From: Prochlorococcus sp. AH-716-K03
GTDB taxonomy: Bacteria > Cyanobacteriota > Cyanobacteriia > PCC-6307 > Cyanobiaceae
Reading direction: 5' to 3'
Assembly: GCA_028408675.1 (NCBI GenBank)
Contig: JAOOLH010000001.1
Coordinates: 1 to 57,974, forward strand
Length of the DNA stretch: 57,974 nucleotides
The notes below the pieces were generated by a model. The model had not been told where the DNA came from. It did no database searches and saw nothing but the letters and a program-made list of their open reading frames with translations. The translations under genes and the position numbers were made by a program. Position 1 is the stretch's first letter. Every line of letters begins with the position of its first letter. Shown in pieces: positions 1 to 46,050 of the stretch.

Positions 1-1
1 A

Positions 2-511
2 AGAGAAAGGATAATTTTTTTAGGGACTGGGATTAATGATCAAGTATCAGATTCACTAGTTGCACAATTATTATTTCTAGAAGCCGAAGATCCTGAAAAG
101 GACATTCAAATATATATCAATTCTCCTGGTGGTTCTGTTACTGCTGGATTAGCTATTTACGATACTATGCAGCAGATCTCTCCAGATGTTGTAACAATCT
201 GTTTTGGGGTAGCTGCAAGTATGGGAGCATTCCTTCTCTCTGGTGGCGCAAAAGGAAAAAGATTAGCATTGCCTAATTCAAGAATAATGATTCACCAGCC
301 TCTTGGAGGTGCTCAAGGCCAAGCAGTAGAAATTGAAATACAAGCAAAAGAAATACTGTTCCTCAAAAAAACATTAAATTCTCTTTTAGCAGAACATACG
401 GGACAATCTTTGGAAAAAATCAATGAAGATACTGAAAGAGATTATTTTCTATCGCCTGGAGAAGCAGTTCATTATGGATTAATTGATAAAGTAATAAAAA
501 ATGACAAGTAA
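2..511 (+). CDS. clpP: ATP-dependent Clp protease proteolytic subunit (5' truncated by window edge)
   Basis: Open frame runs from base 2 ([58 protein letters not shown]...); ClpP motifs [11 protein letters not shown] (catalytic Ser) and MIHQPLGG (catalytic His); clpX follows. Confidence 0.97.
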
Positions 512-612
512 AAGTAATATTTTAAGAATATGATGACGAATCCAATTTTATAAGCAATCCTAATAAGTAAGGGATACTTATCTTTTTTATTTTTTACAAG
601 CTTTAATAATCG

Positions 613-1980
613 ATGGCTAAATTTGACGCCCATCTAAAATGTTCATTTTGTGGTAAATCACAAGATCAAGTCAGGAAACTTATAGCCGGTCCAGGAGTTT
701 ACATTTGTGATGAATGTATAGATCTTTGTAATGAGATTCTTGATGAAGAATTAATTGATACGCAAGCAAAACTGAATAACTCACCTCAAGTAAAGAAAAA
801 ACTACAAACTAATAATCCTAATAAATCTCTTCCCTTAGAATTAACTTCTATACCCAAACCGATTGAAATTAAAAATTTTCTTGATAACCAAGTTGTAGGA
901 CAAGAATCTGCAAAAAAAATATTATCAGTAGCAGTTTATAATCACTATAAAAGATTAGCTTGGAGATTAAATGAAGAAATTAATGAAGATAATTCTAATG
1001 GTTGCCAAGCTACTAAACTACAAAAATCAAACATCCTACTAATTGGCCCAACTGGGAGTGGTAAAACATTATTAGCACAAACTTTGGCTGAGTTTCTTGA
1101 TGTTCCTTTTGCAGTAGCTGATGCAACAACTTTGACTGAAGCAGGATATGTTGGGGAGGACGTTGAGAATATCTTGTTAAGACTTCTACAAAAGTCTGAA
1201 ATGAATGTGGATTTAGCTCAAAAAGGTATCATATATATTGATGAAATCGACAAGATAGCTAGGAAAAGTGAAAATCCATCAATCACAAGAGATGTATCAG
1301 GAGAAGGAGTTCAACAAGCATTATTAAAAATGCTTGAAGGAACCATAGCTAATGTTCCACCACAAGGAGGAAGGAAACATCCCTATCATGACTGCATTCA
1401 AATCGATACAAGTCAGATTTTATTTATATGTGGAGGTGCATTTATAGGTTTAGAGGATATTGTTCAAAAACGTTTAGGAAAACATTCCATAGGATTTACT
1501 ACTACCCAAGAAGAAAACAAATTGGATGCAAAAAAAATAGTTGATTCTCGAGATGCTCTCAAGAATTTAGAACTAGATGATCTAGTCAAATATGGTTTAA
1601 TACCAGAATTCATAGGTAGAATTCCTGTATGCGCAGTATTAGATCGTCTTACTAAAGAAACTCTTGAATCAATTCTTACAGAGCCTAGAGATTCACTAGT
1701 AAAGCAATTTAAAACTTTATTAAGTATGGATAACGTTGAATTAAAATTCGAACCAGAATCTGTGGAAGCAATTGCTAATGAAGCTTTTAAAAGAAAAACA
1801 GGTGCAAGAGCTCTCAGATCAATAATTGAAGAATTGATGCTTGATTTAATGTATACTCTTCCATCTCAAGAAGAAGTTAAAGAGTTCACAATTACAAAAA
1901 AAATGGTAGATAATCTGTTCTCTTCGAAAATTGTTAAACTTCCTGCAAGTCCTAATAGGATGATTAAAGAATCTGCATAA
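613..1980 (+). CDS. clpX: ATP-dependent Clp protease ATP-binding subunit ClpX
   Basis: N-terminal zinc finger CSFCGKSQ...CDEC, Walker A GPTGSGKT, Walker [11 protein letters not shown]. Confidence 0.98.
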
Positions 1981-2038
1981 AAGTATCAGATTATTGTTTT
2001 CATACATAAACCTTAATCATTTAAATTAAAAATAATAA

Positions 2039-3811
2039 ATGCTTAATATACATAAACCTTTTCATCAAAAATACAGGCCTCGTAACCTTGATGAGCTGAT
2101 TGGTCAAGAATTTATATCAACAACTCTTAAACAAGCACTATCACTTCAAAAAATTGCTCCTGCTTATCTTTTTAATGGTCCTAGAGGGACGGGGAAAACA
2201 TCAAGTGCAAGAATATTTGCAAAATCATTAAATTGCCTATCGTCTGATAAACCCACAGCTTATCCATGCGGAAAATGTGAATTATGCATACAAATTGCAG
2301 ATGGTAATGCCCTAGACATTATTGAAATAGATGCGGCATCTAATACTGGAGTTGAAAATATAAGAGAAATAATAGATAGAGCAAGATTTGCCCCTACTCA
2401 AGCTAGATGGAAAGTGTATGTCATCGATGAATGTCATATGCTTTCAACAGCTGCATCAAATGCTTTACTCAAAACTATTGAAGAACCGCCTGCAAAAGTA
2501 GTTTTTATTCTTGCAACTACAAATCCTGAAAGAGTTATAAATACTATTCAAAGTAGATGTCAAAAATTCGACTTTAAAAGAATAAACTCAAATATTATTT
2601 TCCATCACCTTTCGGAGATAGCAAACAAAGAATCGATTAAATTTGAAGATCAAGCTCTAAAGCTTATTGCGAAAAGATCAAATGGTGGGATGCGCGATGC
2701 ACAAAGTTTATTAGACCAATTAAGTCTTTTCCCTGATGGAATAAATACAAAGAACGTTCAAAACCTGCTTGGAGAAGTATCCGAAAATGATTTAACCAGT
2801 TTAATCAATGCATTAATTAATAAAGAACCAGAGTCTTTATTAATTAGTTGTAATAACTTATATGACGCGGGAAATGAACCACATGAGATATTGGTTGGCT
2901 TATTAAATATTACTAGAGACCTATTACTTAAAACTTTAAATAATAATTATTCAGATATGTTCTATACATCTATTGACTTTCAAAATGAATTAAATAAATT
3001 TTCTCATAGCATTAGTAAAAATAGGATAATTGAGTGGCACAACAAACTTAAGAATGTTGATTATCAAATCAAAACGAGCGATAATCCTCGTTTATGGTTA
3101 GAAATACACTTAACTAGTCTTCTTGGAAAAAATGACACAGCAAATATAGTTAATAATATAAAAAATAACAATGTAAATATAAATCAAACGCATGATAATA
3201 ATAGAGAATTAGTGAATAATAAATTTATCTCAGAAGATAATAAAAATGAATCAGAAACCTTGAATAAAGAATTAATTAATAATCAACTTATCTCAAAAGA
3301 TAATAAAAATAAAAATGAATCAGAAACTTTGAATAGAGAATTAATTAATAATCAAGATATTAAACAAAATTCTAAAAATGATAATCAAACTGATTATTTA
3401 AAAGAAAAGTGGGAGCTAATTCTCTCTAAATTAGAATTACCTTCAACAAAAATGTTACTTTCTCAGCAAGCAGAGCTTGCAAGTATTGATTCGAATGAAG
3501 TTTTAATAGCATTATCTCCCAACTGGGAAAATATGATCAAAAGTCGAAAAGTCATAATTGAGAATGCTATAAAAAAAGTCTTTGGGGATAACGTAAAACT
3601 TAACTTTTCTAGCAAAAAAATTAATATAACTAATACTACAAAATCACAAGAGACTGTAATTAAGAAATTAAATGAAAATAATGAAAGGCAAAGCACCGAT
3701 TTTCAAAATTCACCCCCCCTTTCTAAAAAACCTCAAACAGAATCTTACGATAATAGTTCCAAAAATCTAGCAAATTTTTTTAATGGGGAAATTATTGATT
3801 TTGATGAATAA
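2039..3811 (+). CDS. dnaX: DNA polymerase III subunit gamma/tau
   Basis: YRPRNLDELIGQE, GPRGTGKTSSARIFAKSLNC, zinc-binding cysteines, SRCQKFDF; Asn/Lys-rich C-terminal linker. Confidence 0.96.
   Translation: MLNIHKPFHQKYRPRNLDELIGQEFISTTLKQALSLQKIAPAYLFNGPRGTGKTSSARIFAKSLNCLSSDKPTAYPCGKCELCIQIADGNALDIIEIDAASNTGVENIREIIDRARFAPTQARWKVYVIDECHMLSTAASNALLKTIEEPPAKVVFILATTNPERVINTIQSRCQKFDFKRINSNIIFHHLSEIANKESIKFEDQALKLIAKRSNGGMRDAQSLLDQLSLFPDGINTKNVQNLLGEVSENDLTSLINALINKEPESLLISCNNLYDAGNEPHEILVGLLNITRDLLLKTLNNNYSDMFYTSIDFQNELNKFSHSISKNRIIEWHNKLKNVDYQIKTSDNPRLWLEIHLTSLLGKNDTANIVNNIKNNNVNINQTHDNNRELVNNKFISEDNKNESETLNKELINNQLISKDNKNKNESETLNRELINNQDIKQNSKNDNQTDYLKEKWELILSKLELPSTKMLLSQQAELASIDSNEVLIALSPNWENMIKSRKVIIENAIKKVFGDNVKLNFSSKKINITNTTKSQETVIKKLNENNERQSTDFQNSPPLSKKPQTESYDNSSKNLANFFNGEIIDFDE
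3200..3382 (+). repeat. In-frame tandem repeat in dnaX linker (units 63 and 69 nt, plus partial third)
   Basis: Translated copies NRELVNNKFISEDNKNESETL / NKELINNQLISKDNKNKNESETL / NRELINNQDIKQNSKND, with strong nucleotide identity. Confidence 0.85.
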
Positions 3812-42711: not shown

Positions 42712-44790
42712 ATGAAAAAAGAACCTAATAACTACATTAATAGAGAATTAAGTTGGATCGACTTTAATAAACGAGTTCTCCTAACTGGAATGGAGAAAGA
42801 CTATAAAGTACTTGATAAAATTAAATTTTTTTCAATTTTCAGCAATAACTTAGATGAGTTTTTTATGGTGAGAGTTGCTTCACTAAAAGCTCAAGTCGAA
42901 GCAGGAATTAGAAAAAAAAGTATTGATGGGCAAACACCTAAAGAACAATTAAACAAAATAAACAAAGAAGTAAAAAAACTCACAAACCTTCAAGAAATCT
43001 ATTTTAATAATGAATTAAAGGTTGAACTCAAGAATGAAGGAATTTTTATAAAAAAATATGAGGAACTTAATGAGAATCAAAAAAATTGGTGTAATAACTA
43101 TTTCCAATCTTCAATTTTTCCTTTATTAACTCCCTTAGTCGTAGATCCTGCTCACCCATTCCCTTTTATTAGTAATTTAAGTCTTAACCTAGCAGCTCTG
43201 ATTAATGATGGAGAAGAATCTAAAAATCAGTTTGTAAGAATAAAAATTCCAACAAAAAATATCGGCAGATTTATTCTCATACCAAATGAAATTATGGAAA
43301 CAAATAATGAAAAAAAACACTTTTTTATTACTGTTGAAGACTTAATTGGAAACAATATTAATGCATTATTTAATGGAATGAAATGCATTAATTATTCTTT
43401 TTTTAGAGTGACAAGAGACGCAGATCTAGAACTAAAGGAACTTGAAGCTGACGATTTACTTCTAGCAGTTGAGCAAAGCCTTCAAAAAAGAAGATTAGGG
43501 GGAGATGTAGTCAGATTAGAAGTAGAAGAAAATATTCCAGAAAATATTTTGAAATTACTTATTGAGAGCATTGCAATACCAGCAGAGTATATTTACTTTT
43601 GCAAAAGCTTAGTAGGACTTGATGATTTAAATTACCTTACAAAAATTAATCGAGATGATTTAAAAGAGAATTTATTAATTGGCGACAGTCATCCATTATT
43701 AAAAACACTAGATTCTTCTAAAGAAAAAAACTTTAACTCTATTTTCAGCATTCTACGAAAAAAGAATATACTTCTTCATCATCCTTACGACTTATTCAAA
43801 ACTTCAGTTGAGGAATTCATAAATAAAGCTGCTGACGATCCCCTAGTATTAGCTATCAAAATTACTCTTTATAGAGTTTCAAAAGATTCTCCTATTATTG
43901 AAGCTTTGATGAGAGCCGCTGAAAATGGTAAAGAGGTTATGACTCTTGTTGAACTCAAAGCGAGATTTGATGAAGATAACAACATCCAATGGGCAAAGCA
44001 GCTTGAGCAAGCTGGAATTCATGTCGTTTATGGAATACTAGGCTTTAAAACTCATACAAAAATTTCATTAATAGTTAGGAGAGAAAAAGGAAGATTAAGA
44101 AATTATTTCCATATCGGAACAGGAAATTACAATTCAAACACTTCTCGTTTTTATACAGATATAGGATTACTTTCAACAGATCCTGATATAGCATCAGATT
44201 TAATTGAGTTATTTAATTATTTATCAGGATTTTCGAAACAAAAAACTTATCAGAAGTTATTAGTTTCTCCAACATCATTGCGAAAGAAATTCATCTTTTT
44301 AATAAATCGAGAAATTGAAAATGCACAAAAAGGTGGGAAAGGAGAAATAATTGCAAAAATGAATTCCTTAGTTGACCCTGAAATTATTCAATTACTTTAT
44401 TTAGCTTCTCAAAAGGGAGTTAAAATTAACCTAATTATTAGAGGAGTTTGTTGCTTATACCCACAGAGAAAAAATTTAAGTGAAAATATTACCGTAATAA
44501 GTATTATTGGACATTTTCTTGAACATTCTAGAATTTTTTGGTTTTACAATAATAATAATTCGGAAGTTTTTATTGGTAGTGCCGACTGGATGAGAAGAAA
44601 CTTAGACAGAAGAATAGAAGCCGTTACACCCATAGAAGACTTAGATTTAAAAACTCAATTGTATGATCTTTTGCAGACTTATATTCATGATAATTATTAC
44701 TCTTGGGTAATGAATAAAGACGGTGCTTATGTAAAAAAGAGAGAAAATTTAAACTCAAATCGCTCTCAATTTGATCTAATAAAAAAATAA
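42712..44790 (+). CDS. ppk: Polyphosphate kinase 1
   Basis: NRELSWIDFNKRVL, FKTHTKISLIVRRE, HIGTGNYNSNTSRFYTDIGL. Confidence 0.97.
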   Translation: MKKEPNNYINRELSWIDFNKRVLLTGMEKDYKVLDKIKFFSIFSNNLDEFFMVRVASLKAQVEAGIRKKSIDGQTPKEQLNKINKEVKKLTNLQEIYFNNELKVELKNEGIFIKKYEELNENQKNWCNNYFQSSIFPLLTPLVVDPAHPFPFISNLSLNLAALINDGEESKNQFVRIKIPTKNIGRFILIPNEIMETNNEKKHFFITVEDLIGNNINALFNGMKCINYSFFRVTRDADLELKELEADDLLLAVEQSLQKRRLGGDVVRLEVEENIPENILKLLIESIAIPAEYIYFCKSLVGLDDLNYLTKINRDDLKENLLIGDSHPLLKTLDSSKEKNFNSIFSILRKKNILLHHPYDLFKTSVEEFINKAADDPLVLAIKITLYRVSKDSPIIEALMRAAENGKEVMTLVELKARFDEDNNIQWAKQLEQAGIHVVYGILGFKTHTKISLIVRREKGRLRNYFHIGTGNYNSNTSRFYTDIGLLSTDPDIASDLIELFNYLSGFSKQKTYQKLLVSPTSLRKKFIFLINREIENAQKGGKGEIIAKMNSLVDPEIIQLLYLASQKGVKINLIIRGVCCLYPQRKNLSENITVISIIGHFLEHSRIFWFYNNNNSEVFIGSADWMRRNLDRRIEAVTPIEDLDLKTQLYDLLQTYIHDNYYSWVMNKDGAYVKKRENLNSNRSQFDLIKK

Positions 44791-44833: not shown

Positions 44834-44967
44834 TTTGCGTTGAAACTTTAAAGACTAAAAAATAGAATTTTAAAAAATTTATATTTATACAAAACATAGT
44901 CATATCAAATGATTTAAGTAAATATTTACAAAATTCTATTTTTTAGTCTTTAAAGTTTCAACGCAAA
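44834..44967. repeat. Perfect 38-nt inverted repeat around a 58-nt spacer
   Basis: Arm 44834-44871 TTTGCGTTGAAACTTTAAAGACTAAAAAATAGAATTTT is the exact reverse complement of 44930-44967. Confidence 0.97.
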
Positions 44968-45016
44968 AGTAGTTTTTATTTTGATTTCAGTGCTAGCTTT
45001 TTAAAAAATCCATTAT

Positions 45017-45022
45017 AGGAGG
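45017..45022 (+). promoter_or_regulatory. Strong Shine-Dalgarno AGGAGG upstream of sigma factor gene
   Basis: AGGAGG lies 5 nt before GTG 45028 and 8 nt before ATG 45031. Confidence 0.6.
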
Positions 45023-45027
45023 CCAGG

Positions 45028-46050
45028 GTGATGGGGATCCCTCTGGAATCTGGAAAGAGTTCTTCAAAAAAAAATATTGAAGAACCTAGATTACCAAACA
45101 CTGCGGGCAAGACTCGCAAAACAAAATCTAGCTTAACTGCTAAACAAAGCCAAAAAAAATCTGCAAGAAATGCTTCAGATTCTATAGGTTTTTACTTAAG
45201 TAGTATAGGAAGAGTTCCTCTTCTTACAGCTGCTGAAGAAATAGAACTAGCACATCATGTACAAAACATGAAAAAATTGCTAGAAACACCTGAGATTGAA
45301 AGATCAGCGCAAAATCGCCATCTAATAAAAATTGGTAAAAGAGCTAGAGATAGGATGATGGCGGCTAATCTAAGACTTGTAGTTTCTGTTGCCAAGAAAT
45401 ATCAAAATCAAGGTTTAGAACTATTAGACTTGGTACAAGAAGGCGCAATAGGCTTAGAAAGAGCTGTTGATAAATTTGATCCTGCTATGGGTTATAAATT
45501 TTCTACGTATGCCTACTGGTGGATTAGACAAGGAATGACAAGAGCTATTGATAATAGTGCTAGAACCATTCGATTGCCCATTCATATAAGTGAGAAATTG
45601 TCGAAAATGAGGAGAGTTTCTAGAGAATTATCTCATAAATATGGTCGACAACCAACCAGATTAGAAATGGCAACAGCAATGGGTATTGAGCAAAAAGATT
45701 TAGAGGATCTAATCTCGCAGAGTGCACCATGTGCTTCTCTTGATGCCCATGCAAGAGGCGAAGAAGACCGAAGTACACTTGGAGAACTTATTCCTGATCC
45801 AAACGGAGAAGAGCCTATGGAGGGCATGGATAGAACTATCCAAAAAGAACATTTAGGAACTTGGCTTGCCCAGTTAAATGAAAGGGAACAAAAGATCATG
45901 AAACTAAGATTCGGGTTAGATGGAGAAGAACCACTAACTCTTGCTGAAATAGGAAGGCAAATAAATGTATCTAGAGAAAGAGTAAGGCAACTAGAAGCAA
46001 AAGCAATTTTAAAACTGAGAGTAATGACCACTCATCAAAAAGCAGCATAG
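45028..46050 (+). CDS. Group 2 (alternative, primary-like) sigma-70 factor
   Basis: DSIGFYLSSIGRVPLLTAAEEIELA, YAYWWIRQGMTRAIDNSARTIRLPIH, LAEIGRQINVSRERVRQLEAKAILKLR; start GTG 45028 or ATG 45031. Confidence 0.95.
   Translation: MMGIPLESGKSSSKKNIEEPRLPNTAGKTRKTKSSLTAKQSQKKSARNASDSIGFYLSSIGRVPLLTAAEEIELAHHVQNMKKLLETPEIERSAQNRHLIKIGKRARDRMMAANLRLVVSVAKKYQNQGLELLDLVQEGAIGLERAVDKFDPAMGYKFSTYAYWWIRQGMTRAIDNSARTIRLPIHISEKLSKMRRVSRELSHKYGRQPTRLEMATAMGIEQKDLEDLISQSAPCASLDAHARGEEDRSTLGELIPDPNGEEPMEGMDRTIQKEHLGTWLAQLNEREQKIMKLRFGLDGEEPLTLAEIGRQINVSRERVRQLEAKAILKLRVMTTHQKAA

Follow-up and report, generated by a model that had tools for sequence, protein, structure and literature searches.

Perfect inverted repeats can arise from replication that leaves its template for a short distance. 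The four-point template-switch model predicts such repeats (PMC7954356), and a single switch has been proposed to be enough to form a perfect stem (PMC8794818). In the short-range template-switch mutations described in these studies, nearby resident sequence gives rise to a perfect inverted repeat in one event, which is resolved against ancestral-type sequences, and in the quasipalindrome mutations of E. coli the switch takes place within tens of nucleotides and leaves perfect arms (PMC7202029). Inverted joining through a few nucleotides of complementarity also occurs in vitro during MDA, where about 85% of the chimeras are inverted, with 2–21 nt of complementarity and about one chimera per 22 kb of product; most have a single junction, kilobases can separate the joined segments, and self-priming by hairpins has been judged to be no major route (Lasken and Stockwell 2007, PMC1855051).

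The inverted repeat described here lies upstream of a sigma factor gene in a window of 57,974 nucleotides, which is the whole stretch of DNA that was analysed, from a Prochlorococcus assembly (G000; 1.17 Mb in 75 contigs, 69% complete). It resembles the short-range and E. coli mutations: one arm matches, in reverse complement, resident sequence close by, and relatives show the ancestral state without the copy. The kind of event is thus already known, and the repeat is ordinary in kind. Unlike the short-range cases, it lies in a bacterial intergenic promoter region, as a 33-nt insertion without loss in one genome, and unlike the E. coli cases, it had no imperfect long repeat as a predecessor. 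Exact inverted arms in the corresponding gap of the relatives are only 8–14 nt long, and so the repeat reflects a new copy rather than the correction of a quasipalindrome.

Organization of the ppk–rpoD4 Region

The features of the locus are as follows.
42712-44790, plus strand: ppk (polyphosphate kinase), the upstream neighbour, a 692-aa open reading frame named as in the preliminary description
44834-44871, no strand: upstream arm, derived and genome-specific, the exact reverse complement of 44930-44967 and absent from 69 of 69 comparable relatives
44835-44867, no strand: 33-nt templated inverted insertion between CTTAATAT and TTTTAAAA, from the alignment with 20 relatives and a sequence check; its placement is ambiguous by a few nucleotides within a T run
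44872-44929, no strand: spacer, collinear with the relatives and uninverted, from the alignment and an orientation check
44930-44967, no strand: downstream arm, ancestral, with a conserved outer half and a genome-specific inner half, from per-position conservation in 69 relatives
44946-45027, plus strand: conserved rpoD4 upstream block, with most positions about 95–100% conserved in 69 relatives
45028-46050, plus strand: rpoD4, group 2 sigma factor, orthologue of MED4 PMM1697, from the open reading frame and the PMM1697 primer match

Among the relatives, G015 is taken to be MED4 and G022 to be MIT9515. Both published PMM1697 qPCR primers (PMC2921402) are found in the G015 orthologue of the sigma gene at the published 102-nt spacing, with absolute positions 57 nt off the published ones, and therefore the sigma gene is identified as the orthologue of PMM1697 (RpoD4). 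PMM1697 cycles daily in MED4 (PMC2663038) and has been reported to be up-regulated upon nitrogen depletion (PMC2758279). The papers that name PMM1697 give its expression, and no transcription start site for it was located in them.

The two arms match in reverse complement at 38 of 38 positions across a spacer of 58 nt, and can be extended to 43 nt at 95% identity. The gap between the ppk stop at 44790 and the GTG codon at 45028 is 237 nt. Recomputation thus reproduces the arm length, spacer and gap given in the preliminary description. When the window was simulated 20 times with a first-order Markov model, exact arms reached at most 15 nt (spacer of at most 200 nt), and in 1.04 Mb scanned of the 1.17-Mb assembly the second-longest exact short-range arm is 19 nt, this repeat being the only exact inverted repeat of at least 20 nt (spacer below 1 kb). 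The 38-nt repeat is therefore not due to chance. Its RNA and DNA folds have z-scores of -8.3 and -11.1, respectively; both are due to the arms alone and so add nothing further.

Two other features that had been put forward in support carry no weight. The gap is also long in the relatives, at about 200 nt, so that the repeat accounts for just 33 nt of its length. The 12-nt palindrome GTAAATATTTAC in the spacer is one of 30 palindromes of such length in the window and is not conserved in the alignment with 20 relatives. As a candidate NtcA site, this palindrome is likewise rejected, because its GTA-N6-TAC spacing departs from the 8 nt of the NtcA consensus.

Conserved Block Upstream of rpoD4

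Extraction of the rpoD4 upstream regions from all fetched loci yielded 120 distinct sequences, and the downstream arm is recognisable in 69 relatives. The outer half of this arm belongs to a block of about 80 nt, which extends to the start codon of rpoD4 and is present in all 69 comparable high-light Prochlorococcus relatives; in low-light clades and in Synechococcus, the block is unrecognisable. It consists of a core, CTTTAAAGTTTCAA, followed by TGCTAGCTTTTTAAAAAATCC and then GGAGGCCAGG, and contains an extended -10-like motif, TGCTAGCTT (44991-44999). Judging from this arrangement, the block very likely comprises the rpoD4 promoter and leader, and it probably also holds a putative regulator site. 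The conserved motif CTTTAAAGTTTCAACGCAAAAG occurs in four genomes only at the rpoD4 site, apart from the new copy in G000; lacking any wider occurrence in these genomes, it was rejected as a regulon marker.

Polarity of the Two Arms

The upstream arm is absent from all 69 comparable relatives, in which the highest similarity to it is 26 of 38 positions, a level that would be expected of AT-rich background. In the alignment with 20 relatives, relatives have an uninterrupted site in which CTTAATAT runs directly into TTTTAAAA. In the window, the same two sequences are separated by 33 nt (junction sequence CTTAATATTTGCGTTGAAAC), and, together with the flanking Ts, these 33 nt match the downstream arm exactly in reverse complement. 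No ancestral nucleotide is deleted at the insertion site, and T/A-run microhomology flanks the insertion, with 3 nt at one edge and 4 nt at the other. The source sequence lies 59–133 nt downstream of the new copy. The downstream arm is therefore ancestral and the upstream arm is new.

Among the copied bases of the downstream arm are some that the relatives do not conserve, such as the A at 44945 (2% of relatives), indicating that the copying postdates the lineage's own substitutions. Consistently, only G000 among 266 genomes of the genus matches the full repeat segment. The preliminary description rightly listed recent origin among the possible reasons for the identity of the arms, and had named absence from other genomes and lack of covariation among the signs that would speak against its readings; the alignment that it proposed shows both, with no arm covariation and no upstream arm in the relatives. 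It overlooked the difference in age between the arms, one being a templated copy of the other.

Template Switching as the Probable Origin of the Upstream Arm

These observations lead to a plausible hypothesis, held here with moderate confidence as the best reading of the repeat, that the upstream arm is a recent, neutral template-switch copy confined to one genome. Recently and in one lineage, a DNA polymerase would have made two template switches over a distance of about 134 nt. The end of the growing strand may have paired through a T/A run of 3–4 nt, after which 33 nt of the sequence upstream of the rpoD4 promoter would have been copied in reverse orientation; a second T/A run would then have re-paired, allowing synthesis to resume on the original template. 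A fold-back hairpin of the nascent strand and a switch between strands would be equivalent readings of this process. Its product would be an inverted duplicate that is only fortuitously a 38-bp perfect stem, and the repeat is most likely without function.

In a relative (G025, L281:16039-16100), and in this genome alone, a short terminator hairpin is extended to perfect arms of 29 nt; the stem measures about 10–12 bp in six relatives. This stem extension is probably another template-switch event.

Origin in the Cell or During Amplification

A double template switch could also have occurred in the tube during single-cell MDA, with its product then becoming dominant in the reads at the locus. 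Contig C67 of the same assembly (L201:1-4443) carries at its beginning, and so at a contig end, a perfect inverted repeat with 1,376-nt arms, and parts 1-3070 and 3068-6000 of C67 map to opposite strands of MED4, with one junction at about 3068-3070. The inverted repeat of C67 is clearly an MDA fold-back chimera. G000 is therefore very probably a single-cell MDA product that retains at least one artefact, and this makes an in-tube origin of the 33-nt copy possible. In addition, the named relatives are SAGs, amplified by MDA or WGA-X before assembly in the single-cell mode of SPAdes (PMC6122165), the high proportion of inverted joins among MDA chimeras suits such an origin, and a brand-new artefact would also be expected to show zero differences between the arms.

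The geometry of the locus speaks against this origin. A typical MDA chimera has a single junction and joins segments that lie farther apart, and as a class these chimeras combine derivation from an MDA assembly, which C67 bears out here, with a single inverted junction and an intervening deletion; the repeat instead has two junctions, no deletion and a return to the original site. An artefact would require two junctions 38 nt apart followed by a clean return, and would have to dominate inside a 127.8-kb contig, not at a contig end. Moreover, G000 is no richer in short perfect inverted repeats than MED4 and MIT9515 (400 kb of each) or the single-cell genome AG-402-N10 (300 kb). Since a double switch over 134 nt that returns cleanly fits an event in the cell better, an in-cell origin of the 33-nt copy is fairly likely to be the correct one, and an origin in the amplification tube is tentatively regarded as unlikely.

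Structural and Mobile-Element Readings

From the sequence, it had been suggested that the repeat controls the sigma gene as a functional RNA: a hairpin, a small RNA, or a leader processed by RNase III. The predicted fold is indeed very stable, and the repeat adjoins the gene of a regulator with a daily cycle in MED4. However, with the upstream arm in no comparable relative, there is no long stem in any of them and hence no covariation; no Rfam family is matched either, a scan at gathering thresholds returning tRNA only. Since the repeat lies upstream of the likely -10 motif, it would fall outside the rpoD4 mRNA and, if transcribed at all, would be carried by ppk read-through RNA. A role as a functional RNA is therefore very unlikely.

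It is highly improbable that the repeat is a promoter switch in which recombination between the arms inverts the spacer. Perfect arms around a 58-nt spacer would suit such a switch, as would the promoter-like matches TTGAAA-17-TAGAAT, one per arm, facing both ways; these matches, however, are at chance level (two found against 1.9 expected). The relatives have one arm only, and the adjacent open reading frames include no recombinase gene. Of the 69 scored pairs, 66 place the spacer in the orientation that it has in the relatives, and three gave a tie or near-tie.

A MITE-like or other non-autonomous mobile element, which the inverted-repeat ends around a short core might suggest, is scarcely credible, because the spacer and the downstream arm are ancestral resident sequence, the inserted part is one arm only, and the repeat occupies a single locus, with no further copy at up to 3 mismatches in G000, where the arms were searched genome-wide as had been proposed, nor in 266 congeneric genomes; viral contigs likewise gave no exact match to the arm. 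The proposal of a ppk terminator fails as well: a scan for an intrinsic terminator at the repeat, defined by a G+C-rich short stem and a direct T run, found none, and the stem is missing in the relatives.

Implications

Comparison with relatives dissolves the apparent puzzle of the stem, and shows how one template switch can yield a 38-bp stem that mimics a selected RNA structure. It also calls for caution with single-cell assemblies, as G000 holds a proven amplification chimera, and the duplicated start of C67 is not to be taken for biology. The conserved rpoD4 upstream block of high-light Prochlorococcus came to light as a by-product of the analysis. It is improbable that the copy is a real segregating promoter mutation that alters the daily expression of rpoD4. 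If it is, the inverted copy of the conserved upstream element would give this lineage a second, opposite-facing regulator site, together with a chance TTGAAA-17-TAGAAT promoter directed towards the sigma gene.
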